From Draconibacterium sp. (GTDB lineage: Bacteria; Bacteroidota; Bacteroidia; Bacteroidales; Prolixibacteraceae): a stretch of DNA of 41,183 nt. Within the stretch, counting starts at the first letter, position 1; every line of letters begins with the position of its first letter. Below the pieces are notes generated by a model. It was not told the origin of the DNA. It saw only the letters and a program-made list of their open reading frames with translations, and did no database searches. The position numbers were made by a program, and so were the translations under genes. Location of the stretch: contig WOYV01000095.1 in NCBI GenBank assembly GCA_011620585.1, positions 1 to 41,183 on the forward strand, written 5' to 3'. Positions 13,217 through 26,626 of the stretch are shown here, in pieces.

Positions 13217-13948
13217 ATGGCGAAAATTTTAAATTCATCTTGTGATAGTTGTTCGAAATACGGGAATGGTTGCTGTAAAACCTGTATTGCCGAGCATAAA
13301 TCGAATGTGTTTGCGCCATTAACCGACCCCGAACTTGAATTCCTGGTTGAGGAAAAAAAACAAATTATTTATAACAAAGGTGAAACAATCATCAAACAAA
13401 ACACCGCTTCAACATATGTAATTTGTATGAACGATGGTTTGGCAAAAGTTTATGTTGAAAGCGATAACGGGAAAAATGTTATTGTCCGGATTGCCAAACC
13501 CGGAGATTTTATTACCGGTGGCGGACTTTTTAACGGAAGTGTTCAGCATTTCAGTATTTCAGCCATTACTAAAGTAAAATGTTGTTTGATAGATTCGGCC
13601 AAGTTAACCCGTTTATTTGCCGAGAACTCAGATTTCGCAGTTACACTTCTCCGCAACCACATTAAGCAAGGCAACTACCTTTTAAATAAACTCGTGAACC
13701 ACACCCAAAAATATATGCCGGGAAGGGTTGCGGATACCTTGCTATATCTGAAAAACGATATTTTCAATACCGATTCATTTAATGTTCCTCTCACCCGCCA
13801 GGAACTGGCAGAAATGTCGAATATGACAAAAGAAAGTTTTGTGCGCATATTGCACCAGTTCAAAGATTCAAAAGCTATATCTATCAAAGGTGATACTATT
13901 AAAATTCTTGACGAAAGTTCACTAAAAACCATTAGCAAGAACGGATAA
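13217..13948 (+). CDS. Crp/Fnr-family regulator with cysteine-rich N-terminus
   Basis: Transcription factor of 243 residues. It has a cyclic-nucleotide-binding-type beta roll (about residues 35-150), a dimerisation helix and a C-terminal winged helix (LTRQELAEMSNMTKESFVRILHQF). The recognition helix carries E-S-F-V-R, matching the E-x3-R contact pair of CRP/FNR. The N-terminus has Cys9, Cys12, Cys19, Cys20 and Cys23, and Cys122/123 lie in the roll, a set comparable to the four [4Fe-4S] ligands of E. coli FNR. An oxygen- or redox-sensing cluster is therefore plausible but not proven. The residues of the cAMP pocket are not conserved. Two FNR-type palindromes directly follow its stop codon and precede the cytochrome genes, so it probably controls them. 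Confidence 0.88.
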   Translation: MAKILNSSCDSCSKYGNGCCKTCIAEHKSNVFAPLTDPELEFLVEEKKQIIYNKGETIIKQNTASTYVICMNDGLAKVYVESDNGKNVIVRIAKPGDFITGGGLFNGSVQHFSISAITKVKCCLIDSAKLTRLFAENSDFAVTLLRNHIKQGNYLLNKLVNHTQKYMPGRVADTLLYLKNDIFNTDSFNVPLTRQELAEMSNMTKESFVRILHQFKDSKAISIKGDTIKILDESSLKTISKNG

Positions 13949-13949
13949 G

Positions 13950-13963
13950 TTGATATATATCAA
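13950..13963. promoter_or_regulatory. FNR-type box 1 (perfect)
   Basis: TTGATATATATCAA, an exact match to the FNR consensus TTGAT-N4-ATCAA. It starts two bases after the stop codon of the Crp/Fnr gene and lies 146 bases upstream of the first cytochrome start. Confidence 0.8.
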
Positions 13964-13971
13964 TCTTTGCA

Positions 13972-13985
13972 TTGGTTATTATCAA
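13972..13985. promoter_or_regulatory. FNR-type box 2 (one mismatch)
   Basis: TTGGTTATTATCAA, matching TTGAT-N4-ATCAA except for one base. Its centre is 22 bp from the centre of box 1, two helical turns, so two dimers would sit on the same face. If TACTTTTA at 14041-14048 is the -7 element, the boxes centre near -77 and -99. Confidence 0.65.
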
Positions 13986-14095
13986 TGCCGATGTTTTTTT
14001 ATATCATGCTCACACCCCTATTTCATAAGCTTTAGGGAAGTACTTTTACAGCAAAATTAAAGAGTAACAATTTCAATTACCTAATCTAGTACGTT

Positions 14096-15148
14096 ATGAA
14101 ATACAAATCACTTTTAAAACTATTGACTCTCGGTTTTAGTTTCGTTTTCATTTTTGCATCCTGTACCAAGGAAGGCCCTATGGGACCAGCCGGAACTGAT
14201 GGATCAAACGGTAGCGATGGCCGCGATGGAGTTGATGGAAATGTTACCTGCCTGGTATGCCACTCAGGAACAAACATGGAACAAAAACAAGCCGAATTTG
14301 CCATGTCAGAACACAGTGTAGGCGCTATAGCCGTTGATTATGCCGGTGGCCGTGCTTCTTGCGCTCCCTGTCACTCACACGAGCAATTCGTACAAACCAT
14401 AACCTTAGGAAGTGTTGCCGGTGATATTACCAACCCAAGCGCATGGCAGTGCAGTACCTGCCACGGTATCCATAAATCATTTGAAGGAAAAGATTATGCT
14501 TTAAGAGTTTCTGATCCTATTACTTTACTGGTTAATGGGGAAACCACTGATTTGGGCGGAAACTCAAATTTATGTGCCACTTGTCATCAGGCTCGTACAG
14601 CAGAACCTAACACTGCCAGCCCGGGTGAGACTTTCAGAATTTCCAGTGCGCACTACGGACCCCACCATGGGCCACAAGCCAATGTTGTGGCGGGAATCGG
14701 TTTTGCTGAAATTGAAGGAAGCATTGCTTATCCTGAAGCTGGTAGTTCAATTCACCTGAACCAGGCTTCTTGTACTGGTTGTCATATGGCACCTTTCAGC
14801 AACAAACAAGGTGGGCACTCGTACATTCCTAGTTTGGATGCTTGTGTTGAATGCCACGGAGCTGATATGGACGACTACAACTACGGCGGTGTTCAAACCG
14901 AAGTGGAAGAAATGTTGGTTGAATTGCGTGACGAACTGATCACTTTGGGAGTAGTTTTCTGGGACGAAGAAGCGTTAGCATACGAACCTGTTGTTGGAAC
15001 TTACCCAATGCTCCAGGCACAAGCTTTTTACAACTGGATTGGGTTGGAAGAAGACCGCAGTTTAGGTGTACACAACCCTAAGTATGTGAAAGCTCTGCTT
15101 CGCAACACAATCGATGCTTTGAACGTAGCTGAAACAACTAATCCTTAA
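14096..15148 (+). CDS. Hexaheme c-type cytochrome lipoprotein with collagen-like stalk
   Basis: A 350-residue exported lipoprotein (lipobox FIFASC, Cys23). Right after the lipid anchor, residues 27-50 form eight Gly-X-Y triplets (GPM GPA GTD GSN GSD GRD GVD GNV), a collagen-like segment. Six CxxCH haem motifs follow, at residues 52, 89, 119, 160, 226 and 250. Histidines suited to bis-His ligation are abundant (HSH, HYGPHHGP). The last 90 residues have no haem. Lipidation plus the stalk suggests a protein held away from the membrane, probably at the outer membrane. Substrate or acceptor is unknown. It is the first gene after the tandem FNR boxes and is followed by a strong terminator, so it is probably the most expressed member. 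Confidence 0.9.
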   Translation: MKYKSLLKLLTLGFSFVFIFASCTKEGPMGPAGTDGSNGSDGRDGVDGNVTCLVCHSGTNMEQKQAEFAMSEHSVGAIAVDYAGGRASCAPCHSHEQFVQTITLGSVAGDITNPSAWQCSTCHGIHKSFEGKDYALRVSDPITLLVNGETTDLGGNSNLCATCHQARTAEPNTASPGETFRISSAHYGPHHGPQANVVAGIGFAEIEGSIAYPEAGSSIHLNQASCTGCHMAPFSNKQGGHSYIPSLDACVECHGADMDDYNYGGVQTEVEEMLVELRDELITLGVVFWDEEALAYEPVVGTYPMLQAQAFYNWIGLEEDRSLGVHNPKYVKALLRNTIDALNVAETTNP

Positions 15149-15165
15149 TCGTAAAAACATAAGTG

Positions 15166-15197
15166 AAAAAGACTTCTGTAGCAGAAGTCTTTTTTTT
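15166..15197 (+). terminator. Terminator after hexaheme lipoprotein gene
   Basis: Stem GACTTCTG (15171-15178), loop TAG, CAGAAGTC (15182-15189), then eight T; an A run precedes it. It lies 18 bases after the stop codon and before the monoheme gene, so downstream genes need readthrough or their own promoter. Confidence 0.85.
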
Positions 15198-15214
15198 CAC
15201 AAAATCAAAATACT

Positions 15215-15601
15215 ATGAAATCACTGAGAATTATTTTATCACTGGTTGTAATGGCATTGATTTTTGGTGGCTGTGCATACAATTTCATCGTGGAAGAACA
15301 AGTTATTGATCCCAGCGATCCGAATGCACCAGAGGTGTCATTTTCGGGAGAAATCGTTCCGATTTTTACTTCTAAATGTGTTTCCTGTCATACCACAGGT
15401 GCACAGCTTCCCGATCTTTCAGCCAACAAAGCATATGCTTCTTTAAATACCAGTCGTTATACAAACACTTCTTCTCCTGAAAGCAGTCTGATTTATACGC
15501 ATCCCAATCCTGGTACTTCGGAACACGATTGGGCGAAGTATTCAGATGCAGAAGCTGCAAAAGTTCTGACATGGATTACGCAGGGAGTAAAAAATAACTA
15601 A
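15215..15601 (+). CDS. Monohaem c-type cytochrome lipoprotein
   Basis: A 128-residue lipoprotein (signal MKSLRIILSLVVMALIFGGC, lipidated Cys20). A single haem site is at residues 55-59 (IFTSKCVSCH), preceded by SFSGEIVPIF, the layout of the cytochrome c domains found next to DUF5777 and planctomycete-type proteins. The end, DAEAAKVLTWITQGVKNN, is the usual last helix. A Met ligand is not evident in the 70 residues after the haem, so the sixth ligand is unclear. It is 15 bases from the DUF5777 gene and the two are probably co-translated. Confidence 0.85.
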   Translation: MKSLRIILSLVVMALIFGGCAYNFIVEEQVIDPSDPNAPEVSFSGEIVPIFTSKCVSCHTTGAQLPDLSANKAYASLNTSRYTNTSSPESSLIYTHPNPGTSEHDWAKYSDAEAAKVLTWITQGVKNN

Positions 15602-15616
15602 AAACCTAAAACGATA

Positions 15617-16516
15617 ATGATGAAAAAAATAATATTGATTCTGCTTATTTTAGGAATTGCGCTAACCAATACTTTTGCACAAGAAGAGGAAGGGTCCCAA
15701 CCGGTTTACGCTTTTAATAGCGGGATACTGATTGATGCACAAACCTCTTATATACCGGATGCCAAAACCCTGGAGTTTATCATTCAACATAAATTCGGAT
15801 CACTTGAAAACGGGAAATCTGATTTATGGGGGATCTACGCCCCCGGATCAAACATTCGCCTTGGGCTTAACTATGTCCTGGTAAAAAACCTCCAAATAGG
15901 TGCAGGCATCACTAAAAAGAACATGTACACTGACTTAAGCGCAAAATGGACCGCACTTCAGCAAACCACTAAAAATATGCCCATTTCCCTAACACTTTAC
16001 GGAAACGTGGCAATTGACGGAAGAGATGCTGAGACACTCGGGACAGGGAAAGTAGTTGATACAAAAGGAGAAACGCTTCCTACAAGCATTGGTTTCAATG
16101 AACGGTTGGCATATTTCTCTGAGTTAATAGTGAGCCGTAAATTCTGCGACTACTTTTCGTTGCAGGCGGGCGTCAGTTTTACCCATTACAATATGGTAGC
16201 CTGGGATTATGACCATGATGTAGTTGGTATCCATGTAAACGGTAAGATTAAATTCTCCCCTCAGGGCTCTCTTATCTTTAACTACGATCAACCGTTAAAG
16301 ATCGACAAGGTCTCGGAACTAACAAACTGGGACACGCATGCAAAAGAAAACGTTTCTATCGGAGTTGAGTTTTTCACCTATACACATGCTTTCCAGATTT
16401 ATGTAGGAACTGCCGATGGCATTATCCCTCAGGACATGATGATGAATAACAATAAAGACTGGACTGATAAAGGCCTTGCATTCGGGTTCACCATCACACG
16501 GCTCTGGATGTTTTAA
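15617..16516 (+). CDS. DUF5777-family beta-barrel protein
   Basis: A 299-residue outer-membrane-type protein. After the signal peptide (MMKKIILILLILGIALTNTFAQ) comes FNSGILIDAQTSYIPDAKTLEFIIQHKFG, the hallmark of the DUF5777 family. Alternating amphipathic strands follow (LGLNYVLVKNLQIGAGI, PISLTLYGNVAI, FSLQAGVSFTHYN), and the chain ends in an aromatic residue (TITRLWMF), as expected of a barrel-assembly signal. The family is usually seen beside c-type cytochromes and YceI proteins and has no proven function. Here it lies between surface-type cytochrome lipoproteins and periplasmic cytochromes, so a porin role in an outer-membrane electron conduit is a reasonable inference, not shown by sequence. 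Confidence 0.85.
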   Translation: MMKKIILILLILGIALTNTFAQEEEGSQPVYAFNSGILIDAQTSYIPDAKTLEFIIQHKFGSLENGKSDLWGIYAPGSNIRLGLNYVLVKNLQIGAGITKKNMYTDLSAKWTALQQTTKNMPISLTLYGNVAIDGRDAETLGTGKVVDTKGETLPTSIGFNERLAYFSELIVSRKFCDYFSLQAGVSFTHYNMVAWDYDHDVVGIHVNGKIKFSPQGSLIFNYDQPLKIDKVSELTNWDTHAKENVSIGVEFFTYTHAFQIYVGTADGIIPQDMMMNNNKDWTDKGLAFGFTITRLWMF

Positions 16517-16548
16517 CCAAGATACTGATAACCAGGTGACAACGAAAG

Positions 16549-16583
16549 ATGGTAATATCTCGGAACGCGATATTACCATTTTT
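16549..16583 (+). terminator. Terminator after the DUF5777 gene
   Basis: Stem ATGGTAATATC (16549-16559), nine-base loop, GATATTACCAT (16569-16579), followed by TTTT. Perfect 11-bp stem. It separates the outer-membrane part of the locus from the membrane and periplasmic part. Confidence 0.8.
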
Positions 16584-16640
16584 CTTAAAAATTAACTTCA
16601 AAGAATAAATAACAACTACCGATTTTAAAGAAACTTCGCC

Positions 16641-17579
16641 ATGAGATTTATAACTTTTGTACTTCTTTTCATTTTAATTCCGGGCCGGACTCAACCACTC
16701 GCTGCTCAAAGTTACGATGATCCTAAAAACCATACTTGCCTGCAATGTCATTCACAACAAGCCTACGCGTTTCATAACGATTTGATGGATAAACAGGAAA
16801 AAAGATTGATGAACCCGTATTATATTCTCGATACAATAGCGATCCGTAACGGGGTGCATCAAAACTTTGACTGCACCGACTGTCATTCGTTCGAGTATTC
16901 AACTTACCCGCACACTGCTACCTTAAAACTGGAACCTATGGCAACTTGCCTGGATTGCCATGGAGGCGACGAAGCCTTTGCCAAATACGAATTTGATAAA
17001 ATAGACGAAGAATTTCATAAAAGTGTGCATTACCAGGTGTATGGCGATAATTTCACCTGTTCGAAATGCCACAGCCAGCATACCTACCACCCTTCGGCCC
17101 GTAATAGCAGTAGCATTACCGAAATTGTGGAGAACAGCAACAACATGTGTTTGTCATGTCATAACGATATGCGCAAATTCGAGTTGGTTGCCGATTCAGC
17201 GATTGCAACCGTGGTCGATATCCACAGTTGGTTACCAAATCAGGAACTTCACTTCCAGCACGTGCGCTGCATCGAATGCCACACGGCAGTTGAAGACGAC
17301 CTGATGGTTTCTCACAATATCTTATCAAAAGATCATGCCGTTCGCCGTTGTGCTGAATGCCATTCGGCTAATTCGTTGTTAAAAGCTTCATTGTATAAAT
17401 ATCAAAACCTCCAGGAAAGAGCTGAAGATGGAAGTTTATTGGGGGTATTATCTCATGAGAACTATGTGATTGGTTCGCACCAGATACCAATATTAAAAAC
17501 CTTAAGCCTGATTATTTTCTTTGCGGTAATCGGCGGAATAATCGTTCACGGAATATTCAGAATAATCCTAAAAAAGTAA
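16641..17579 (+). CDS. Heptahaem c-type cytochrome with C-terminal membrane anchor
   Basis: A 312-residue exported cytochrome. Signal peptide MRFITFVLLFILIPGRTQPLAAQ is followed by seven CxxCH motifs at residues 33, 78, 103, 140, 170, 210 and 237, then a membrane helix at about 285-308 (TLSLIIFFAVIGGIIVHGIF) and a short basic tail. The haem domain is thus periplasmic and fixed to the inner membrane. Spacing resembles the NrfB/cytochrome c3-like and doubled CxxCH families, but I cannot assign a named family. It is 4 bases from the b-type cytochrome gene, and the pair probably forms a quinol-oxidising module (b-haem subunit plus anchored multihaem c subunit). Confidence 0.88.
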   Translation: MRFITFVLLFILIPGRTQPLAAQSYDDPKNHTCLQCHSQQAYAFHNDLMDKQEKRLMNPYYILDTIAIRNGVHQNFDCTDCHSFEYSTYPHTATLKLEPMATCLDCHGGDEAFAKYEFDKIDEEFHKSVHYQVYGDNFTCSKCHSQHTYHPSARNSSSITEIVENSNNMCLSCHNDMRKFELVADSAIATVVDIHSWLPNQELHFQHVRCIECHTAVEDDLMVSHNILSKDHAVRRCAECHSANSLLKASLYKYQNLQERAEDGSLLGVLSHENYVIGSHQIPILKTLSLIIFFAVIGGIIVHGIFRIILKK

Positions 17580-17583
17580 GACA

Positions 17584-18201
17584 ATGAGTTCAGAAAATAA
17601 AATCTATTTTTATCCAATATGGTTGCGCACCTGGCACGGGATCAATGCGCTTGGAATTATCATCCTGATCATCACCGGTATTACGATGAATTCAGGCATG
17701 GAAAAATCACTTATCAGTTTTAACCTGAATATAAAATTACACAACTATACTGGTGCCATAGTTTCACTAAATTACCTTTTGTTTTTTATCGGAAACCTGG
17801 TAACCAACAACAAGAAATTTTACATTGTAAAACCAAAGAATTTCCTGAAACGACCAATGAAACAAGCCTATTATTATGCATGGGGAATGTTTCACGGGAT
17901 GAAAGCCCCTTACCCGCTTTCTGAAAATAGGAAGTTCAATCCACTTCAAAAATATTTCTACATCATTATAATGTACCTTGCTGTTCCTTTGGTAATTATA
18001 AGTGGCATTGGTTTAATGTTTCCCGAAGTAATTTTTAATAAAATATACGATATCAGTGGTGTATTAATCACTGCCGTAATACATTCGGCAATGGGATTTT
18101 TTATTTCCATTTTCCTGGTTATCCATTTATATGTTGCTTCGATTGGCAAATCGCCACTCGACAACTTCAAGGGAATTCTGAATGGTTGGCACCATATTTA
18201 A
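17584..18201 (+). CDS. Cytochrome b561-like integral membrane subunit
   Basis: A 205-residue protein with four membrane helices and no signal peptide. Candidate haem b ligands are His18 (LRTWHGIN, helix 1), His53 (KLHNYTG, helix 2), His167 (VIHSAMG) and His181 (VIHLYVA). This is the pattern of the Ni/Fe-hydrogenase or thiosulfate-reductase b-type cytochromes that pass electrons between menaquinol and a periplasmic partner. The obvious partner is the heptahaem protein encoded immediately upstream. The gene after it encodes a second b-type domain fused to c haems, so the locus has two separate b modules. Confidence 0.85.
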   Translation: MSSENKIYFYPIWLRTWHGINALGIIILIITGITMNSGMEKSLISFNLNIKLHNYTGAIVSLNYLLFFIGNLVTNNKKFYIVKPKNFLKRPMKQAYYYAWGMFHGMKAPYPLSENRKFNPLQKYFYIIIMYLAVPLVIISGIGLMFPEVIFNKIYDISGVLITAVIHSAMGFFISIFLVIHLYVASIGKSPLDNFKGILNGWHHI

Positions 18202-18287
18202 TTCGATTGGGAGGAAACGAACCCGTTAGCGGAATGTCGGCTCACTGATAGCAGGCTAATTTGATACGAACCAAAAATAACCATAGC

Positions 18288-21131
18288 ATGAGCGACAGTC
18301 GTAAACTAAATAGTGACGATTACAGATTTGATCTATTCCATATTGGCGCAAAAAGAATTTTGTCTGCACTTCGTGTTGGCACTTTAACTGTATTTCTGAT
18401 ATTTAGCGCCTTAAATCTATGGTCGCAATCGAACGACGACTGTGCCATGTGCCACGACGATCCGGATTTAACGACAACAGTTAACGGACGGGAAGTTTCG
18501 CGATACATTCCGGCAAACATTCTGGAACATTCGGTACACAGTTATCTTGAGTGTGTTTCGTGCCACACTGATGCTGCGGTCGAAGATTTTCCACATCCCG
18601 AGAAATTGCAACCGGTAAATTGTGGCGAATGTCACGACGATGCGATGTCTAACTTTCTGGGGGGTATTCATGGAACTGCATTTCAAGCCAACGATAAAAA
18701 CGCACCCAACTGTGCAGAATGTCATGGTACACATGAAATATTAAGTGCAGCCGATCCCAAATCGCGCACCTACAAAATGAATATTCCGGTTCTGTGCGGC
18801 AAATGTCACCGCGAAGGGGCTCCCGTAGCCCGTTCGTACAACATTGGCGAGCACAATATTCTGGAAAACTACAGCCAGGGCATTCATGGTAAAGGATTGT
18901 TCAGTAGTGGTTTGATTGTGACTGCCACCTGTAACGATTGCCATGGAAACCACCTGATCCTGCCCCACACCAATTTAAATTCTTCGATATCTAATAAGAA
19001 TATCGCAAGTACCTGTATGAAATGCCATGCACGGATTGAAGATGTTCACGTAAAAGTGATCAATAAAGAATTGTGGGAGAAAAGTCCTGGCGCCATTCCG
19101 GCTTGTACCGACTGTCATCCACCGCACAAAGTTGAACTCAAAAATATTTTGGCAACCATTTCGGATAAAACCTGTTTAAAATGCCACGAACAGCCTGATA
19201 TTCATAAAGTTGTTGATGGAAAGAATATTTCACTGAACATCGATGTAAACGAGTTTGTTGGCTCGGCTCACCAAAATATTACCTGTGTTAAATGCCACTC
19301 GGATGTTACGGCGAACATTGCACGCCCCTGCGAAACTGCGGATAAAGTAGATTGCTCGGGCTGCCATGCCGAAGAAGCTGATATTTATTTCCAGAGCGGA
19401 CACGGGAAGGCCTATTTTGCTAAGGACGAGAACGCTCCTTATTGTACCACTTGTCATGGTTCTCACCGTGTAATTCCATCTGCCAGCGAAAACTCACCAA
19501 CCTTCCGTTCGGCTGTTCCGAAACTCTGTGGCGAATGTCACCGAAATGACGGCAAAGCAGTCCAAGGGACTAATTTGAAAGAAACCGACGCATACCGCGA
19601 TTATTCTACCAGTGTACATGGCCGAAGTCTGGAAGAAAAAGGCCTGCTCTCGGTAGCGATTTGTACCGACTGTCATACAACTCACTTCATGTTAAAAGAA
19701 GAAGACGAGCGTTCGTCGGTTAATCCTAAAAACCTTGCGAATACCTGTGGTAAGTGCCACAAAGGAATTTACGATGAGTACATTCAGAGCGAACACGGTA
19801 TTCATGATAACACCAGCAATCTGAAATTCCCTACCTGCGAAACCTGTCACACTGCGCATACTATTTCCGAAGTTCATGAAAGCAAATTCATGTCGGAAAT
19901 TACCACCCAGTGCGGTCAGTGCCACAAAGAGCTTGCAGAAACTTATCTCGAGACTTACCACGGAAAAGTATATCAGCTGGGATATTTGGAGGCAGCCCGT
20001 TGCTCGGATTGTCATGGTGCACATAATATTTACCGGATGGATAATCCAAAATCGACGATCAGTCCAAGGAATATTGTTGGTACTTGTCAGAAATGTCATA
20101 CCGATGCGAACATGAAATTCACAGGCTACCTTACCCATGCTACGCATTACGACAAGAACAACTTCCCCTGGTTGTACTACACTTTCTGGGCTATGACTGC
20201 ATTGCTGCTCAGCGTTTTTGCATTCTTTGGTCTCCATACGTTGTTATGGTTGCCACGTTCGCTGGGTGCGATGATCAAAAAAAGGAGCGAACCGCATCCG
20301 GTAGGAAAACAAATGTATATCCGCAGATTTACCAGAAAGAACCGGATCACACATGTTTTTGTGATCGTTAGTTTCATCATGCTTGCACTCACCGGAATGA
20401 TCCTTAAATTTGCATACATGGACTGGGCAAAGTTCCTGTCCGACCAGATTGGCGGCGCCAGGGTTGCCGGTATCATCCACCGAATTGCTGCACTTGTAAC
20501 CTTTGGATATTTTATTTTCCATGTAGTTTCGATGTTAAAAATCAAATTCAAAAAAGGGATTAAAGTCAGCAAGTTTATTTTTAGCAGTAACTCTCTGATG
20601 TTCAACAGAAAAGATATTAGGGATTTTTGGGCCTCAATCCGTTGGTTTATTGGCGTTGGCCCAAGGCCGGAATATGGAAGATGGACTTACTGGGAGAAAT
20701 TCGACTACTTTGCAGTGTTTTGGGGAGTTATGGTAATTGGCTCGACCGGGTTGATGTTGTGGTTCCCCGAAATTTTTACGAAGTTCTTACCGGGGTGGTT
20801 GATTAATGTAGCGCAAATTATCCACAGCGACGAAGCTTTACTGGCAGTTGGTTTTATTTTTACCATTCACTTCTTCAACACTCATTTACGTCCGGAATCG
20901 TTCCCGATGGATACGGTTATTTTCACCGGATATGTGCCGGAAGAAGAATACAAAAAAGACCGTCCGTACGAGTACGGACAATTGGTAAAATCGGGTAAGA
21001 TCAATAATGTTCGGGTTGAAAAAGAATTCAGCAAACAAAAGATGCGCACCATTAAAATTTTTGGGTTTACCGCACTCTTTGCCGGTGTTGTGATGATTGT
21101 GCTGATCATTTACTCACTTATCTTTCATTAA
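18288..21131 (+). CDS. 19-haem cytochrome c fused to a b-type membrane domain
   Basis: A very large fusion of 947 residues. I use ATG 18288; an upstream TTG at 18261 would add nine residues. A membrane or signal segment (VGTLTVFLIFSALNLWSQ) is followed by nineteen CxxCH motifs between DNA positions 18441 and 20099, then about six membrane helices from residue 625 on. His-bearing helices (RITHVFVIVSF, IIHRIAALVTFGYFIFHVVSM, IIHSDEALLAVGFIFTIHFFNTHL) show a b561-type dihaem domain. The haem part is a tandem duplication of an eight-haem module plus a three-haem partial copy (see the repeat entry). By composition it recalls Geobacter CbcL, where b and c domains are joined, but there the b part comes first and has fewer c haems. 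Role inferred: menaquinol oxidation feeding a long periplasmic haem wire. Confidence 0.88.
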   Translation: MSDSRKLNSDDYRFDLFHIGAKRILSALRVGTLTVFLIFSALNLWSQSNDDCAMCHDDPDLTTTVNGREVSRYIPANILEHSVHSYLECVSCHTDAAVEDFPHPEKLQPVNCGECHDDAMSNFLGGIHGTAFQANDKNAPNCAECHGTHEILSAADPKSRTYKMNIPVLCGKCHREGAPVARSYNIGEHNILENYSQGIHGKGLFSSGLIVTATCNDCHGNHLILPHTNLNSSISNKNIASTCMKCHARIEDVHVKVINKELWEKSPGAIPACTDCHPPHKVELKNILATISDKTCLKCHEQPDIHKVVDGKNISLNIDVNEFVGSAHQNITCVKCHSDVTANIARPCETADKVDCSGCHAEEADIYFQSGHGKAYFAKDENAPYCTTCHGSHRVIPSASENSPTFRSAVPKLCGECHRNDGKAVQGTNLKETDAYRDYSTSVHGRSLEEKGLLSVAICTDCHTTHFMLKEEDERSSVNPKNLANTCGKCHKGIYDEYIQSEHGIHDNTSNLKFPTCETCHTAHTISEVHESKFMSEITTQCGQCHKELAETYLETYHGKVYQLGYLEAARCSDCHGAHNIYRMDNPKSTISPRNIVGTCQKCHTDANMKFTGYLTHATHYDKNNFPWLYYTFWAMTALLLSVFAFFGLHTLLWLPRSLGAMIKKRSEPHPVGKQMYIRRFTRKNRITHVFVIVSFIMLALTGMILKFAYMDWAKFLSDQIGGARVAGIIHRIAALVTFGYFIFHVVSMLKIKFKKGIKVSKFIFSSNSLMFNRKDIRDFWASIRWFIGVGPRPEYGRWTYWEKFDYFAVFWGVMVIGSTGLMLWFPEIFTKFLPGWLINVAQIIHSDEALLAVGFIFTIHFFNTHLRPESFPMDTVIFTGYVPEEEYKKDRPYEYGQLVKSGKINNVRVEKEFSKQKMRTIKIFGFTALFAGVVMIVLIIYSLIFH
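18441..20099 (+). repeat. Tandem eight-haem modules within the fusion cytochrome
   Basis: Haems 1-8 start at 18441 and haems 9-16 at 19173. In both modules the first and last haem motifs lie exactly 663 bases apart, and the period is 732 bases (244 codons). Matching landmarks include NAPNCAECHGTHEIL / NAPYCTTCHGSHRVI, VLCGKCHRE / KLCGECHRN, SSISNKNIASTCMKCH / SSVNPKNLANTCGKCH. Haems 17-19 (from 19911) repeat the pattern of haems 5-7, including SPRNIVGTCQKCH. The repeats have diverged in DNA, so the duplication is old. Confidence 0.88.
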
Positions 21132-21141
21132 AACCGGTTAT

Positions 21142-21383
21142 TTTGCAAAATTCGAATTGCAAATTTTTGATAACTTTACACAAATGGGGGTCCTGCAAAG
21201 AACTGAAAGATAACTTGAAAGAAAGTTCTTTGAGTTGGGGGATAATTATTGATCGGAACATAATTTCAGAACAAAACGCCATATATAGAAGACGTATAAA
21301 TAGCTTGTGATTATTGATTAATTAGTTGATTTTTATAAACTTTCGGGTCTTAAGTTACAGGATGTTTCATTAAAAATATAATC
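21142..21383. other. Intergenic region before the NapC-type gene
   Basis: About 250 AT-rich bases with two inverted repeats: TTTGCAA (21142-21148) with TTGCAAA (21157-21163), and CAAAGAACT (21196-21204) with AGTTCTTTG (21224-21232). Neither has a clean T run. The length suggests a separate promoter for the NapC-type gene. No FNR-type box matching TTGAT-N4-ATCAA was found in it. Confidence 0.45.
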
Positions 21384-22886
21384 ATGAAATTACCTTCATC
21401 AATTAGAAACTGGATTTCGATTACCGGAGCAGTTTTAGCTGTCTTTAACCTCGCAAGCATCCTCTCGCTCTTCCTTCTGAATGTTCTATTCGGATTTGGG
21501 GGATCGTACATAGGATTGTTTATATACATGGTATTGCCAGGGTTCATGATCGTTGGTTTGCTGATGATCCCTATCGGGATGCGAATCAACCGAAAAAGAG
21601 CCCGAAAAGCTGCCAAAGAAGGGAAAGAGCTAAACTGGCCTGTTCTGGATTTCAATAATCTCCCTACCCGAAACGCTGCCACAATTTTTATTATTGGCAC
21701 GATCTTCTTACTCATCATTTCTTCTGTTGGAAGCTATGAAGCCTTTCATTACACCGAATCGGTTGAATTTTGCGGTAAACTTTGCCACCAGGTGATGGAA
21801 CCCGAATATACTACCTACCACGGTTCGTCGCACGAGCGGGTGGCTTGTGTCGAATGTCATGTTGGCTCGGGTGCAAGCTGGTATGTAAAAAGTAAACTTT
21901 CGGGTTTATACCAGGTATATTCAGTAATGGCCAAGAAATATCCGCAGCCAATCCCTACTCCAATCGCGAACCTGCGCCCTGCCAGGGAAACCTGCGAACA
22001 ATGTCACTGGCCCGAGAAATTTTACGATCGTAAAATGAAAGTGAAACATTCGTTTTTAACCGACGAAGAAAACACTGAAAGAATTACCCAGTTGCAAATG
22101 AAGACCAGTTCGAAAATGATGAACGGTAAACTCGAAAAAGGAATACATCAGCACATTAGCCCTGATGTTGTTATTGAATATAAAACCACTGATGCCAAAC
22201 GGCAGGTAATTCCCTGGGTAAGATACACCAATAAAAAAACAGGAGAAGTAAGTGTTTTCACCGATGATGAAAATATGTTGTCGCAAAACGAGCTCGATTC
22301 GCTCGAAACACGTGTAATGGATTGTCTGGACTGTCACAACCGTCCATCACACAATTACAATGTGCCGCAGAACTTTATCGATCAATCGATGAGCGAAGGA
22401 AAGATTTCTACGAGTTTACCCGCTATTAAAATGGTTGCCATGTTGGCCCTCAACCAGGAATATCCAACCCGCGACAGCGCATTTCTTGCTATCGAAACAC
22501 AAGTAAACGATTGGTACCAATCTTCGTATCCCGATATTTGGGAAAGCAATAAAGCTGAAATCGTCCAGGCGATTAGTGAAATTCAGAACGGTTATGCCAA
22601 CAATATTTTTCCTTATATGAAAGCAAGTTGGAAAGAATATCCCAACAATATCGGGCATATGGAATCAGATGGATGTTATCGTTGTCATAACGACCGGCAT
22701 GCCACTGAATCGGGAGTAGTTATTTCAAAAGACTGTACCTTGTGTCACAATATATTAGCCCAGGGACTTGGCGGAGAAATGGAATATTCCGCTAATTTCG
22801 AACCGCTTGATTTTAAACATCCGGTTGATATTGGCGAAGAATGGCGTACCGAACCTTGTTCAACTTGTCACTCGGCTTTGTATTAA
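21384..22886 (+). CDS. NapC/NirT-type heptahaem membrane cytochrome, ImcH-like
   Basis: A 500-residue inner-membrane protein. Three membrane helices (about residues 11-36, 43-66, 98-116) precede a periplasmic part with seven haem sites. The first is the unusual C-x3-C-H motif FCGKLCHQVMEPEY (Cys130, Cys134, His135); six CxxCH follow (CVECH, CEQCH, CLDCH, CYRCH, CTLCH, CSTCH). The NapC/NirT signature is ESVEFCGKLCHQVMEPEYTT and SSHERVACVECHVGSGASW. The long region between haems 3 and 4 is absent from four-haem NapC/NrfH. Seven haems plus three helices match the description of Geobacter ImcH, a menaquinol oxidase used for high-potential extracellular acceptors. Identity to ImcH itself is not established. 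No NrfA-type catalytic partner is encoded nearby. Confidence 0.88.
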   Translation: MKLPSSIRNWISITGAVLAVFNLASILSLFLLNVLFGFGGSYIGLFIYMVLPGFMIVGLLMIPIGMRINRKRARKAAKEGKELNWPVLDFNNLPTRNAATIFIIGTIFLLIISSVGSYEAFHYTESVEFCGKLCHQVMEPEYTTYHGSSHERVACVECHVGSGASWYVKSKLSGLYQVYSVMAKKYPQPIPTPIANLRPARETCEQCHWPEKFYDRKMKVKHSFLTDEENTERITQLQMKTSSKMMNGKLEKGIHQHISPDVVIEYKTTDAKRQVIPWVRYTNKKTGEVSVFTDDENMLSQNELDSLETRVMDCLDCHNRPSHNYNVPQNFIDQSMSEGKISTSLPAIKMVAMLALNQEYPTRDSAFLAIETQVNDWYQSSYPDIWESNKAEIVQAISEIQNGYANNIFPYMKASWKEYPNNIGHMESDGCYRCHNDRHATESGVVISKDCTLCHNILAQGLGGEMEYSANFEPLDFKHPVDIGEEWRTEPCSTCHSALY

Positions 22887-22943
22887 AAATTGAAAAGAAA
22901 GAAAATTTAAATTATATTCGTGTAAACTTTAAAAATTGCAATT

Positions 22944-23450
22944 ATGAACTACAGACGTATTATCTTTTTGTTTGGCTTGATTGTTTTGTTTAGTGTTGGA
23001 GCTTCTGCCCAGGACTTTAAGTACATCGGCGCTTCTAAATGTAAAATGTGCCATAACAAACCTGACAAAGGAGCACAATTTGCAAAATGGGAAGCCAGTC
23101 CACATGCCAAATCAATGGATGCTTTGAAAGGTGATGAAAAAACCAATGCAACTTGTCTGAAATGCCACTCTACCGCTGGAAGCGTAGATAAAGGCTTATT
23201 GGCAGGGATTAAAGTTGAGGAAGGCGTTTCATGCGAATCGTGCCATGGTCCGGGCAGCATGTACAAAACGGCTGCAATCATGAAAAACAAGCAAATGGCT
23301 TTATCAAAAGGGATGATCGATCCAACTGAAGAAACTTGCAAAGCATGCCATCTGGGTGAAAAACCAGCAGGTCACGTGGCCGCAAAAAAAGCCTGGAATT
23401 TTGCTGAATTTGCCAAGGAAATCGCACACGACGATCCGACAACCAATTAA
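22944..23450 (+). CDS. Tetrahaem cytochrome c554-like protein
   Basis: A small soluble periplasmic protein of 168 residues. Signal peptide MNYRRIIFLFGLIVLFSVGASAQ; haem motifs CKMCH, CLKCH, CESCH and CKACH. The order YIGASKCKMCHNKPDKGAQFAKWEASPHAKSM, then CLKCHST, GVSCESCHGPGS, and TCKACH is the cytochrome c554 pattern, in which the GVSCESCHGPGS segment is the most conserved. In other bacteria such proteins shuttle electrons in the periplasm. Placed after the NapC-type quinol oxidase, it is the natural soluble carrier. A strong terminator follows. Confidence 0.9.
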   Translation: MNYRRIIFLFGLIVLFSVGASAQDFKYIGASKCKMCHNKPDKGAQFAKWEASPHAKSMDALKGDEKTNATCLKCHSTAGSVDKGLLAGIKVEEGVSCESCHGPGSMYKTAAIMKNKQMALSKGMIDPTEETCKACHLGEKPAGHVAAKKAWNFAEFAKEIAHDDPTTN

Positions 23451-23477
23451 TTAAAATACTTTGCTTTGCATTTTAAG

Positions 23478-23513
23478 AAAATTCCTTTGTGTAAAAAACA
23501 AAGGAATTTTTTT
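23478..23513 (+). terminator. Terminator after the tetrahaem gene
   Basis: Stem AAAATTCCTTTGT (23478-23490), seven-base loop, ACAAAGGAATTTT (23498-23510), T run to 23513. Perfect 13-bp stem. It should strongly limit readthrough into ccsBA. Confidence 0.85.
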
Positions 23514-23542
23514 CGTCATTTCATTTTACTACATATAAAGTC

Positions 23543-26500
23543 ATGAAAAAATTACGCTCCTTTATCTTTTCGATGTTCTTTACCGGCATTCTGCTGACCA
23601 TTTTTGCAATTGCCATCGGCTATGCAACTTTCCTGGAGAATGACTACGGTACCATAACAGCAAAAATTCTTATTTATAATTCCAGATGGTTCGAATTACT
23701 CCTGGTTCTGCTGTCCATCAATCTGATTGGCAGTATTTTCGAGTATAAACTAATCGCAAGAAAGAAATGGACTGTACTCCTTTTTCATATCTCTTTTGTG
23801 GTAATTCTAATTGGAGCTGCCGTTACCCGCTATTACGGTTACGAAGGAAGCATGCACATCCGCGAAAACCAGTCTTCGAACAGCCTCGTTTCTGATGCTA
23901 CTTATATTATTGTGGAAGCCAGAAATGGCAATCAAACCGTGCGAACTGAAAAGGAAGTAAAATTTTCGCCCTACACAAAAAACAACTTTTCCGAATCCAT
24001 TTCAATTGCAGGTCAAAATATCAGCATTGAAAATCAAATATTTATGCCATCAGCGATGGAAAATATTGTGGTCGATCCAAACGGCGAACCCATTGTTTCA
24101 GTAATTGCGGTCAACTCTGCTTCACGTCGTCTCGATTTCAATTTAAGAACAGGCGACATGAAGTTGATCGACGGATTCTCGATGGGCTTTGGCAACAACA
24201 CGCTCACCGATATTCAATTTAAGCTTGAAGGTGGAATTTTAATTCTTGTTGCGAACGACACTCTCGCGATTAATGAAATGACCAACAACGAACCCGAGAT
24301 TTTGTCGCCTGGAATGTCCACCGAAATCAATACACAAAAGGTGTACACTTACAAGAATGTGAATTTTGCGGTAAAGCAATTCCTTATGAAGGGTTCCACT
24401 CAGCTTGTTTATCAGCAGGCCCAACGCGGAATGCCAACAGTCGATGCATTTAAAGCAATTGTATCGGGCAACGGAATAAGCAAGGAACTGGTGGTTTACG
24501 GACAAAAAGGGGAAGTAGGTGACTTCTATTCCACTAATCTGAACGGAACGGTTGTTTCGGTTTCGTATGGTTCTAAACTGATCGAACTTCCTTTTTCGAT
24601 CCAGTTAAAAGACTTTCAACTTGAACGTTACCCCGGTTCTAACAGCCCATCGAGTTACGCCAGCGAAGTGGTGTTAAAAGATGGAACAACAGAACTTCCG
24701 TTTCGTATTTTTATGAATAACATTTTGAAATACCAGGGTTATCGTTTCTTTCAATCGTCGTACGATACCGACGAGCGCGGCACCATCCTTTCGGTCAACC
24801 ACGATGCACTGGGCACCGGGATTACATATTTTGGCTACCTGGTTATGGCCATCGGAATGGTCCTTACATTATTTAATAAAAACAGTCGGTTCGTAGCGCT
24901 CATGAAAGTTTCGGGCAAACTTCGTCAACAACGTAAAAAGTTTTTTGCAGTGTTGGTTACAGGGTTGTTGCTGGCGGTTTCGGCTCAAGCACAAACCGTT
25001 GGGGATATCGATAAAAACCATGCAAAGGAATTTGAAAAACTTTTGGTTCAGGATAGAAAAGGAAGAGTGGAACCGGTTTCTACGCTGGCATCAGAAATTC
25101 TGCGAAAGGTTGCGAAGAAAACCAGTTGGGAAGGAATGTCGTCAACTGAAGTATTCCTTGATATGCAAGCCAATCCCGATAAGTGGAAAAATGTGGCTTT
25201 TATAAAAGTTGCCAATCCCGAATTAAGAAAAATACTTGGGACTACCGGTAATTTTGCCTCCTTCAACTCGATTGTGGCACCACGTGAAATGGGCGGATAC
25301 CGTCTGAGTTCGCTTGTTCAGGAGGCTTACGAAAAAAGCAGCAATCAGCGCAACAAACTCGACAAGGAAATTATGAATGTCGATGAGCGGATCAACATCC
25401 TGATGAGCGTTTTCAGAGGAGAGTTCCTAACCATTTTCCCAATTCCCGGCGACGACAACCACAAATGGGTTTCTATTAACGAAGCGAATCAACTCGACGG
25501 CCAAAGCGCCCGTTTTGCGGTAGAAACAGTTTCTTCATACTACAACGCGGTACAAAACCGCGATTGGGCAACTGCCAACATCTTACTGAATAACTTAAAA
25601 CAAAACCAGCAGCAAAACGGGTCTAAAATAATTCCGTCGGCAACAAAAGTTAAACTCGAGGTTTTATACAACGATCTGAACATTTTCGGAAAGCTGGCTA
25701 AGATTTTTATGTTTGCGGGTCTTCTTATGCTCATCCTGCAACTGATCACCATTTTCAACCCTCAAATCAAACTGTTTGCCTTTAAAAAATCAGCTATTTA
25801 TTTCGTATTCCTTTTATTTATTGCCGAAACGGCCGGACTCGGAATTCGCTGGTATATTTCTGACCATGCTCCCTGGAGCAACGGTTACGAATCGATGATA
25901 TTTATTAGCTGGGCCACTTGTTTGGGTGGGTTAATCTTTGCCAAGCGTTCAGAGATCACCTTGTCGCTCACCTCGGTACTTTCAGGTTTAACGTTGATGG
26001 TAGCCGGGATGAGTTGGATGAGCCCCGAAATTACGAACCTGGTTCCTGTTCTGAAATCGTACTGGCTCATCGTTCACGTGGCTATAATTACTGCCAGTTA
26101 TGGATTTTTGGGGATCAGCGCTCTGCTTGGGTTCCTTAACCTGATTTTAATGATTTTCAGAAACCCGAAAAATATTGACCGGATTAACCACACCATTAAA
26201 GAATTGGTAAATATTATTCAAATTGCCTTAATCATTGGTTTATTGATGGTAACGCTGGGGTCATTCCTTGGTGGCGTTTGGGCGAACGAAAGCTGGGGAC
26301 GCTATTGGGGTTGGGACCCTAAAGAAACCTGGGCGCTGGTAACAGTATTGGTTTATACCTTTATTACCCACATGCACCGCATTCCCGGAATGCGCGGAAG
26401 TTTTGCCATGAGCGCTGCCTCGGTGGTTGGTTTTAGTTCGGTGTTAATGACTTACTTTGGAGTAAACTATTATCTATCCGGGCTTCACTCTTATGCACAG

Positions 26501-26626
26501 GGCGAACCGGCACCTATTCCAACCGGAGTTTACATTGCAGTTGTGGTAGTTGCGTTGGTAGTGGTAGGAGCGTTCGTTTCGGAACGGGCCAAACCAATTG
26601 TTGACGAAGATCTTACAGAAGATTAA
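23543..26626 (+). CDS. ccsBA: Fused cytochrome c synthetase (System II, ResB-CcsA)
   Basis: Transports haem outward and attaches it to CxxCH apoproteins. At 1027 residues it is the one-chain form of System II. The N-terminal CcsB/ResB half has helices near 8-30, 48-66, 78-95 and a large periplasmic domain ending at the helix near residue 435. A second segment (FFAVLVTGLLLAVSAQAQ) begins the linker. The CcsA half from about residue 715 has many helices and the haem-handling WWD motif WANESWGRYWGWDPKETWALV, with conserved His residues such as WLIVHVAIITASYG and FITHMHRIPGM. Placement next to five multihaem genes suggests a dedicated maturase; other copies may exist elsewhere. The C-x3-C-H haem site upstream is a test of its substrate range. 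Confidence 0.95.
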   Translation: MKKLRSFIFSMFFTGILLTIFAIAIGYATFLENDYGTITAKILIYNSRWFELLLVLLSINLIGSIFEYKLIARKKWTVLLFHISFVVILIGAAVTRYYGYEGSMHIRENQSSNSLVSDATYIIVEARNGNQTVRTEKEVKFSPYTKNNFSESISIAGQNISIENQIFMPSAMENIVVDPNGEPIVSVIAVNSASRRLDFNLRTGDMKLIDGFSMGFGNNTLTDIQFKLEGGILILVANDTLAINEMTNNEPEILSPGMSTEINTQKVYTYKNVNFAVKQFLMKGSTQLVYQQAQRGMPTVDAFKAIVSGNGISKELVVYGQKGEVGDFYSTNLNGTVVSVSYGSKLIELPFSIQLKDFQLERYPGSNSPSSYASEVVLKDGTTELPFRIFMNNILKYQGYRFFQSSYDTDERGTILSVNHDALGTGITYFGYLVMAIGMVLTLFNKNSRFVALMKVSGKLRQQRKKFFAVLVTGLLLAVSAQAQTVGDIDKNHAKEFEKLLVQDRKGRVEPVSTLASEILRKVAKKTSWEGMSSTEVFLDMQANPDKWKNVAFIKVANPELRKILGTTGNFASFNSIVAPREMGGYRLSSLVQEAYEKSSNQRNKLDKEIMNVDERINILMSVFRGEFLTIFPIPGDDNHKWVSINEANQLDGQSARFAVETVSSYYNAVQNRDWATANILLNNLKQNQQQNGSKIIPSATKVKLEVLYNDLNIFGKLAKIFMFAGLLMLILQLITIFNPQIKLFAFKKSAIYFVFLLFIAETAGLGIRWYISDHAPWSNGYESMIFISWATCLGGLIFAKRSEITLSLTSVLSGLTLMVAGMSWMSPEITNLVPVLKSYWLIVHVAIITASYGFLGISALLGFLNLILMIFRNPKNIDRINHTIKELVNIIQIALIIGLLMVTLGSFLGGVWANESWGRYWGWDPKETWALVTVLVYTFITHMHRIPGMRGSFAMSAASVVGFSSVLMTYFGVNYYLSGLHSYAQGEPAPIPTGVYIAVVVVALVVVGAFVSERAKPIVDEDLTED

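Follow-up and report, generated by a model that had tools for sequence, protein, structure and literature searches.

A multihaem cytochrome operon of Draconibacterium with a predicted 12-stranded DUF5777 barrel as a candidate route for electron export

To which acceptor would an operon deliver electrons if it encodes several quinol oxidases, multihaem cytochromes, and a small outer-membrane barrel? This question is raised by a locus of Draconibacterium sp. on contig WOYV01000095.1 (assembly GCA_011620585.1), a stretch of 41,183 nt that is referred to here as the window. The genes between positions 14096 and 23450 all lie on the plus strand (open reading frame [ORF] listing), and an initial annotation had read them as an electron conduit from the inner to the outer membrane. 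Judged by sequence comparison, structure models, and analogy with characterized systems, this operon most likely serves to export electrons to an acceptor outside the cell, a function that we consider probable. This reading is supported by features of the quinol oxidases ImcH, CbcL, and CbcBA, by the relationship of a hexahaem lipoprotein to the surface reductase OcwA, by relatives of that lipoprotein that are sorted by the type IX secretion system (T9SS), by an FNR-type box, and by conservation. Directly observed are the gene content and order, the conservation of motifs, histidines, and the FNR-type palindrome, and the relationships by fold; we infer the outward direction, anaerobic induction, the surface location of the hexahaem protein, the physical contact of the parts, the nature of the acceptor, and the redox ranges.

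Under this reading, the operon would be an anaerobically controlled respiratory branch that takes electrons from menaquinol to an outside acceptor. A CbcBA-like pair (16641-18201), a CbcL-like protein (18261-21131), and an ImcH-like protein (21384-22886) would act as alternative menaquinol oxidases, and may differ in redox range as their counterparts do in Geobacter. The periplasm would then be crossed by a soluble carrier, which is tetrahaem here and monohaem in many relatives; the DUF5777 barrel, predicted to have 12 strands, would pass electrons through the outer membrane together with a monohaem lipoprotein; and a surface-tethered hexahaem lipoprotein of the OcwA type would hand them to the acceptor.

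Haem content and the inner-membrane quinol oxidases

Counting motifs in each ORF from 14096-15148 to the one ending at 23450 gave 6, 1, 0, 7, 0, 19, 6 CXXCH plus 1 CX3CH, and 4. This amounts to 43 CXXCH motifs and one CX3CH motif, and the annotated total of 44 c-type haem sites (6+1+7+19+7+4) was therefore exact. The annotated two b-type modules, NapC-type heptahaem protein, and DUF5777 barrel were likewise found with Pfam, the b domain of 18261-21131 scoring just under its cut-off. The quinol modules are not generic, however. All three agree with what has been published on the extracellular electron transfer (EET) oxidases CbcBA, CbcL, and ImcH of Geobacter sulfurreducens, a comparison that covers haem counts, topology, and domains.

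ImcH is described as a protein of 495-519 aa with three N-terminal transmembrane helices, a CX3CH motif beside a transmembrane helix, and six CX2CH motifs, and its homologs in other bacteria as 31.5-49% identical to Geobacter ImcH (PMC6295460). The heptahaem NapC/NirT-family quinol dehydrogenase at 21384-22886 (PF03264, E 2.6e-09) has all of these features: 500 aa, transmembrane helices by hydropathy at residues 17-35, 43-61, and 98-116, a CX3CH motif (CGKLCH) at residue 130, and six CXXCH motifs. CbcL, MtrH, and MtoC are reported to carry 3-23 N-terminal c haems followed by a b-type membrane domain, and their C-terminal half is said to span the membrane six times (PMC6295460, PMC9129911). A c-haem part ahead of a b domain is likewise present at 18261-21131, where 19 CXXCH motifs, compared with 9 c haems in Geobacter CbcL, precede a membrane cytochrome b domain of the FdnI/b561 type (PF01292 6.3e-07, 29.8 bits, just below the cut-off of 30.1; TIGR01583 1.6e-10, below the curated cut-off). 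After residue 630, a crude hydropathy scan gave five separate hydrophobic segments, not six.

CbcB is described as a PF01292 protein and CbcA as a membrane-bound heptahaem cytochrome with PF09699 (PMC7726332; the haem number of CbcA is also given by PMC10470525). This description fits the pair formed by a heptahaem cytochrome at 16641-17579 (7 CXXCH; PF09699 4.7e-09, 36.2 bits, cut-off 20.6), with a C-terminal membrane helix at residues 284-302, and a cytochrome b of the b561/PhsC type at 17584-18201 (PF01292 3.3e-24, 86.1 bits, cut-off 30.1; no haem motif), in which His18, 53, 167, 181, and 203 are conserved in 72/72 sequences. Outside the haem motifs, seven histidines are invariant in the c part of the former (74/74 sequences), and by our count 19 are invariant in the CbcL-like protein, up to residue 629 (26/26 sequences). 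These numbers equal the numbers of haems, 7 for 7 and 19 for 19, which fits bis-His electron-transfer haems.

In Geobacter, ImcH is reported to work above -0.1 V, CbcL at low potential, and CbcBA near -0.2 V (PMC12307469); by analogy, the three oxidases here may cover the same ranges. The three proteins have been called among the best markers of EET (PMC12977616). Single modules were already known in the phylum, as a 2018 survey counted five CbcL homologs and one ImcH homolog in Bacteroidetes (PMC6295460). In contrast to Geobacter, all three oxidases stand here in one operon with an outer-membrane module, so that a correct assignment would place three Geobacter-type quinol oxidases side by side. 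The last gene of this part (22944-23450) encodes a tetrahaem cytochrome of the c554 type (4 CXXCH; PF13435 1.1e-11) with an N-terminal hydrophobic segment, predicted to be the soluble periplasmic carrier.

The hexahaem lipoprotein and its relatives

The gene at 14096-15148 (cyt6) encodes a lipoprotein with six CXXCH motifs. For comparison we used two sets of loci with the orthologous barrel type: one of 21 loci, and one of 79 loci with organism names, for which the best 80 were taken out of 180 confirmed stretches. Fifty hexahaem sequences were aligned, the window's and 49 of the 70 of the 79-locus set, leaving out most of the long (~443-461 aa) five-haem variants and near-copies. In this alignment, the lipobox Cys23 and Lys25 are invariant and Glu26 is present in at least 90%; the lipobox is followed by X-K-E-G-P and then by a collagen-like stretch. 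The lipobox cysteine of the monohaem protein (15215-15601) is invariant as well. The surface lipoprotein export signal of Bacteroidetes has been described in Capnocytophaga as C-X-K-(D/E)2-X (PMC5080379). The N-terminus of the hexahaem protein, a candidate surface protein, matches it in part: K at +3 is invariant and E at +4 is present in at least 90%, but +5 is an invariant G.

When a profile of the 50 orthologues was searched against 177,635 PDB sequences, OcwA of Thermincola potens (6i5b) came first of 36 matches (E 1.1e-14), followed by NrfA and the octahaem nitrite reductases (ONR). An AlphaFold2 model (pLDDT 82.7, pTM 0.80) again gave OcwA as the first Foldseek match (E 3.0e-05, TMq 0.48), albeit a remote one. 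The two proteins have in common a D-x-S-x-GVHN motif, the C-terminal helices, and a pair of adjacent histidines, of which H190 is present in 50/50 and H191 in 39/50 aligned sequences. By profile and predicted fold, the hexahaem protein thus belongs to the NrfA/ONR/OcwA family and is closest to OcwA. As a member of this family it could itself be a terminal reductase, and the initial annotation, which had found no known terminal reductase in the locus, was too strong on this point.

According to its description, OcwA is a terminal reductase of the cell surface that is not related to MtrC; of its nine haems, two, one being haem 5, are open (five-coordinate), each under a pair of histidines (PMC6703420). 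The similar pair in the hexahaem protein makes a substrate-binding haem possible. In our reading of the alignments, haem 2 would correspond to OcwA haem 5 and NrfA haem 1, the active-site haem, and haems 3-6 to NrfA haems 2-5, with a haem numbering that we in part presume. There are also clear differences: six haems are found here and nine in OcwA, and whereas the host of OcwA, which reduces iron, is Gram-positive, the present protein is a lipoprotein with a collagen-like spacer, encoded in a diderm beside an outer-membrane barrel. As OcwA groups with nonahaem proteins of Gram-negative bacteria (PMC7829351), its type is not new to diderms; if the reading of the operon is true, it would link this type of surface reductase to a defined diderm outer-membrane module.

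The same relationship raises the alternative of a respiratory reductase for a soluble acceptor, such as nitrite, hydroxylamine, or another small oxidant, in which the hexahaem protein would be the enzyme and the barrel would pass substrate or product. The fold family and the H190/H191 pair, which recalls the one above the open haem 5 of OcwA, are both in keeping with this, and OcwA is reported to reduce nitrite and hydroxylamine, although its kcat for nitrite is only 1 per minute (PMC6703420). On the other hand, most members of NrfA carry their catalytic haem on a CXXCK motif (PMC6703420), and this motif is absent from the hexahaem protein, in which all six motifs are CXXCH and no CXXC is followed by another residue. 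For this reason we rejected an NrfA enzyme. Beyond the motifs there are six further conserved histidines (five in 50/50 sequences, H126 in 45/50), so that all six haems could be bis-His coordinated. We had considered a pure wire with only bis-His haems on this ground, and downgraded it because OcwA also has enough histidines and yet has two open haems. Furthermore, an enzyme in the periplasm would have no need of another lipoprotein cytochrome or of three quinol oxidases of the EET type, and longer relatives of the protein carry T9SS surface signals (2/2 tested). Taken together, we regard a soluble acceptor as unlikely.

For relatives elsewhere in the phylum, outside the family Prolixibacteraceae, we examined 16 hand-picked loci from 16 genomes. 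In 9/16, the relative is of similar length (341-410 aa, 5-6 haems), and by inspection a cytochrome-barrel set adjoins it in 9/9. The composition of this set varies. One locus (L181) has a DUF5777 barrel and a monohaem protein; in five others (L182-L186), a fused, barrel-like protein of ~400-420 aa with a single CXXCH motif takes the place of the two; and in three (L187, L188, and L196), the relative stands beside a 14-haem protein, a barrel-like ORF of 423-458 aa, and a protein with 6-8 haems. The barrel nature of these ORFs was judged by inspection; no Pfam family was found in the four of them that were scanned, and the fused proteins had no match in Pfam (L182, L183) or NCBIfam (L182, L183, L185). 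In the other 7/16 loci, the domain lies within a longer protein of 521-915 aa with 8-9 haems, and T9SS sorting domains were present in the two of these that were tested. The conduit is thus exchanged around a hexahaem type that is retained, which is good evidence for this protein working at an outer-membrane electron conduit. Examples of the fused proteins are encoded at L182:10537-11733, L183:7726-8949, L185:10278-11543, and L186:11614-12870.

The DUF5777 barrel and the crossing of the outer membrane

Between the hexahaem gene and the quinol oxidase genes lie the monohaem lipoprotein gene cyt1 (15215-15601; 1 CXXCH) and the DUF5777 barrel gene (15617-16516; PF19089, E 1.3e-69, 234.7 bits, cut-off 23.1; no haem motif). 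The barrel was aligned as the window's sequence with 62 of 81 others, and the monohaem protein as the window's with 30 of 77. In the 31 monohaem sequences the lipobox cysteine (Cys20) is invariant and the export signal C-X-K-(D/E)2-X is absent, and the protein is probably anchored to the outer membrane on its periplasmic side.

The AlphaFold2 model of the barrel has 12 strands (pLDDT 86.3, pTM 0.81). By E-value, OmpG was its first Foldseek match (3.0e-07, TMq 0.41), while target coverage was best for KdgM (TMt 0.75), VhGalP (0.69), and NanC (0.63), all three of which we take to have 12 strands. With the usual barrel formula, we calculated a backbone radius of ~11 Å, compared with ~24 Å for 26 strands, the number reported for the barrel of MtrCAB (PMC8406198). 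A barrel of this radius should have no room for a folded cytochrome domain. On this model we rejected a sheath of the MtrAB kind, since the predicted barrel looks too narrow to enclose a multihaem wire as MtrB does. Electron export remains the best-supported part of the annotated conduit, whereas an MtrCAB-like porin-cytochrome mechanism does not fit, given 12 predicted strands instead of 26 and a near-constant monohaem partner. Like the MtrCAB/Pcc systems, the locus combines an inner-membrane oxidase, a periplasmic carrier, a barrel, and a candidate surface multihaem lipoprotein in one cluster; unlike them, it has no gene for a multihaem plug, and its surface cytochrome would be of the OcwA rather than the MtrC type.

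In having one haem and a small barrel, the pair also resembles Cyc2, which is described as the fusion of an N-terminal monohaem domain, bearing the motif AXPXFAR[Q/K][T/Y], to a porin of 16 strands, with a presumed haem plug at its periplasmic mouth (PMC8406198). We rejected membership of Cyc2 because of the separate genes and the 12 predicted strands, and by inspection the Cyc2 motif is missing from six fused relatives.

The genomic contexts of paralogous DUF5777 barrels give a further indication. In 15/18 loci, a gene for a c-type cytochrome (9 loci) or one of a Rieske or cupredoxin cluster was found within 3 genes on the same strand, and a YceI gene in 14/18, alone in three (Rieske, cupredoxin, and YceI are cluster labels, for which one member per cluster was tested). 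With redox neighbours in 15/18 loci, DUF5777 appears to be tied to one-cofactor redox proteins. This could indicate a third kind of conduit, with neither a multihaem wire nor a large pore filled by haems, in which a 12-stranded DUF5777 barrel is clamped between a periplasmic one-cofactor redox protein and an outer redox protein. In that case, DUF5777 barrels would serve generally for the docking of redox proteins, with the monohaem and hexahaem proteins as partners here, and a Rieske protein or a surface cupredoxin in paralogous loci. His58 and His257, which are invariant in 23/23 sequences down to 22% identity, or a bound cofactor would perhaps bridge the gap. We put this forward as a tentative model that is more doubtful than the export function itself. 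Five barrel histidines are invariant among 20 orthologues and only two across paralogues, and their positions, judged from strand parity in the model, trace no evident path along the pore. At L054:7795-10659, three genes in a row encode a cupredoxin with T9SS sorting, a DUF5777 barrel, and a Rieske protein, possibly a haem-free counterpart of this outer-membrane arrangement.

Another possible role for such a barrel is that of a channel. It could admit a metal such as Fe or Cu, or a small shuttle such as a flavin or a soluble quinone, which the cytochromes would reduce in the periplasm or at the surface. The small porin-like fold agrees with this, with KdgM and NanC, which presumably serve in solute passage, among the fold matches, as do the YceI-domain genes beside 14/18 paralogous barrels. 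Such a channel would, however, leave unexplained both a hexahaem protein with surface-type features and the linkage of DUF5777 to several unrelated types of redox protein (15/18), and we think it quite unlikely. Among the parts of the proposed export chain, the crossing step is the most novel, the other modules being recognizable. If export is true, it poses a physical question, namely how electrons get across the membrane when the pore has no room for a haem wire.

Regulation, gene order, and distribution

The annotated extent, 14096-23450, held for the genes within it, while the whole unit is larger (13217-26626). It is preceded by a gene for a Crp/Fnr-family regulator with conserved cysteines (13217-13948; Pfam cNMP_binding and HTH_Crp_2) and followed by a gene for a ResB-CcsB fusion for cytochrome c maturation (23543-26626; PF01578 4.3e-40, PF05140 2.7e-24), both on the plus strand. 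Between the regulator and the hexahaem gene, 133 bp 5' of the start codon of the latter, lies TTGATATATATCAA (13950-13963). No other perfect TTGAT-N4-ATCAA, a palindrome that we take to be the FNR operator consensus, occurs in the window of 41 kb. TTGA-N6-TCAA occurs within 350 bp upstream of 81/90 hexahaem genes (expected 0.029 per 350 bp), and the full consensus in 30/90; the 90 genes include genomes fetched twice, and the 79-locus set alone gave 60/69. In 64 aligned regulator sequences, Cys20 is conserved in 57, Cys23 in 60, Cys70 in 58, and Cys123 in all 64; cluster-binding cysteines are presumably an FNR feature. In NCBIfam, the regulator reached 63.4 of 266 bits for CRP and 39.9 of 228 for Fnr. 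These sequence features suggest an FNR-like O2 or redox sensor and anaerobic control of the operon; since the regulator scores far below the Fnr cut-off despite its conserved cysteines, we infer this control rather than assert it.

The genome of the window (3.94 Mb, 132 contigs, 99.7% complete) has two COX1 genes. A search for terminal reductases, covering PF00384 and PF02335, gave one PF00384 match, outside the operon, and no full-length NrfA, with one partial PF02335 match above the cut-off in a 792-aa frame. On these grounds the operon may be a main anaerobic branch.

The gene set is also retained elsewhere, in line with the search of other genomes that had been proposed. For gene order, a simple longest-ORF caller was used, and unlabelled ORFs of less than 100 aa were skipped. 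The core order hexahaem-monohaem-barrel, then heptahaem-cytochrome b, was found in 21/21 loci of the smaller set and for 59/67 barrels of the 79-locus set where the whole core could be judged. In the latter set, the monohaem gene lies directly 5' of the barrel gene in 79/80 cases, and the hexahaem-monohaem-barrel trio is present in 74/77. The order is broken by an inserted ImcH-like gene downstream (L134, L147, L148), at first duplicate copies (L102, L137, L144), or by missing parts (L100, L109, L150); in L137 and L144, the trio is tandemly duplicated as a unit within the operon. In the 21-locus set, the regulator stands 5' of the core in 21/21 and the ResB-CcsB gene 3' of it in 19/21; the regulator is absent or reversed in several loci of the 79-locus set. 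In 18 fetched loci, only 2/197 genes more than 3 genes away from a DUF5777 barrel had a CXXCH motif, and, with the core order retained, the grouping is thus not due to chance.

Accessory genes were counted in 51 of the 79 loci (at least 15 kb, with barrel, heptahaem, and cytochrome b genes; a label denotes any match in the locus). As the CbcL-like gene is missing in 27/51 and the ImcH-like gene in 10/51, some perhaps cut off by locus ends, these two are not essential to the core. On a quick tree of the 51 loci, with three long end branches, they change 8 and 9 times, respectively, and some of the absences may again be locus ends. Draconibacterium orientale FH5T (L112) has the core genes, but its CbcL-like gene is a 181-aa remnant and its tetrahaem protein is reduced to three motifs. 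The soluble carrier is monohaem only in 22 loci, tetrahaem only in 26, both in 1, and neither in 2, the tetrahaem form thus being absent from 22/23 loci with a monohaem carrier; as this swap needs only 2 changes on the tree, it carries little statistical weight.

Within the bacterial family, a DUF5777 protein of any type was found in 115/140 genomes, and the hexahaem protein or its longer five-haem variant in 97/140 at E <= 1e-20. Across the phylum, hexahaem matches were found in 103/395 genomes at E <= 0.001, many of them covering the collagen-like N-terminus only; among the matches listed, 66 genomes reached E <= 1e-20. The nearest barrels in the 79-locus set (70-77% identity) come from Draconibacterium, Maribellus, and an unassigned Prolixibacteraceae metagenome-assembled genome (MAG), and its genera also include Mariniphaga, Sunxiuqinia, and Mangrovibacterium. 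The gene set is carried by a family of marine and sediment Bacteroidota. Bacteroidota are known for the breakdown of polysaccharides; should the operon function as proposed, extracellular respiration would be an ordinary trait of a common family among them. Several hosts are named strains, so that the question is open to direct test. A plasmid search with the ImcH-like protein gave no match, and none of 46 pattern matches to the barrel in IMG/VR was confirmed. The word DUF5777 was found in no paper in our literature search, nor did titles and abstract beginnings among the matches listed yield a paper describing this gene set. EET pathways are mentioned for a Prolixibacteraceae MAG in PMC10504345, and may include this operon.

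The reverse direction, an inward chain that feeds the quinone pool with electrons from outside, whether from Fe(II), Fe(0), or a partner cell, has to be weighed here, and we consider it highly improbable: the genera of the 79-locus set are organoheterotrophic, and the FNR-type palindrome points to anaerobic induction. It would accommodate the single-haem fused barrel-like proteins that accompany hexahaem relatives elsewhere and share the architecture of the iron oxidase Cyc2, and would have the two COX1 proteins as possible sinks. Relatives of CbcL are reported from Fe(III) reducers and Fe(II) oxidizers alike, but homologs of ImcH from Fe(III) reducers only (PMC6295460), and OcwA is described as a terminal reductase (PMC6703420).

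Several points weigh against electron export, which we nevertheless prefer. The crossing step seems, from the model, to be without a known mechanism, as the barrel looks too narrow for a multihaem wire. The hexahaem protein has C-X-K-E-G, with an invariant G at +5, and thereby matches the surface export signal only in part. The comparison of the oxidases with those of Geobacter covers published features, and the CbcL-like and ImcH-like genes are dispensable in the loci counted above; the regulator is distant from the Fnr model. A soluble acceptor is possible because OcwA reduces nitrite and hydroxylamine, and Prolixibacter strains are reported to corrode iron through nitrite (PMC8368055). In a deep-sea enrichment on chitin and iron oxide, EET was ascribed to Desulfobacterota, though Bacteroidota were enriched too (PMC13374861).

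Other contigs of the same genome carry further cytochrome genes. On contig C41 (L177:8732-12861), two cytochrome genes in tandem encode proteins with 20 haems (531 aa) and 34 haems (851 aa). On contig C80 (L180:6190-12046), a gene whose product combines 11 haems with a cytochrome b domain lies near the sole PF00384 (molybdopterin) match, on the opposite strand. Contig C98 (L179:8946-10475) encodes an odd fusion of 510 aa, in which a tetrahaem NapC/NrfH-type domain is joined to a domain resembling formylglycine-generating enzyme.

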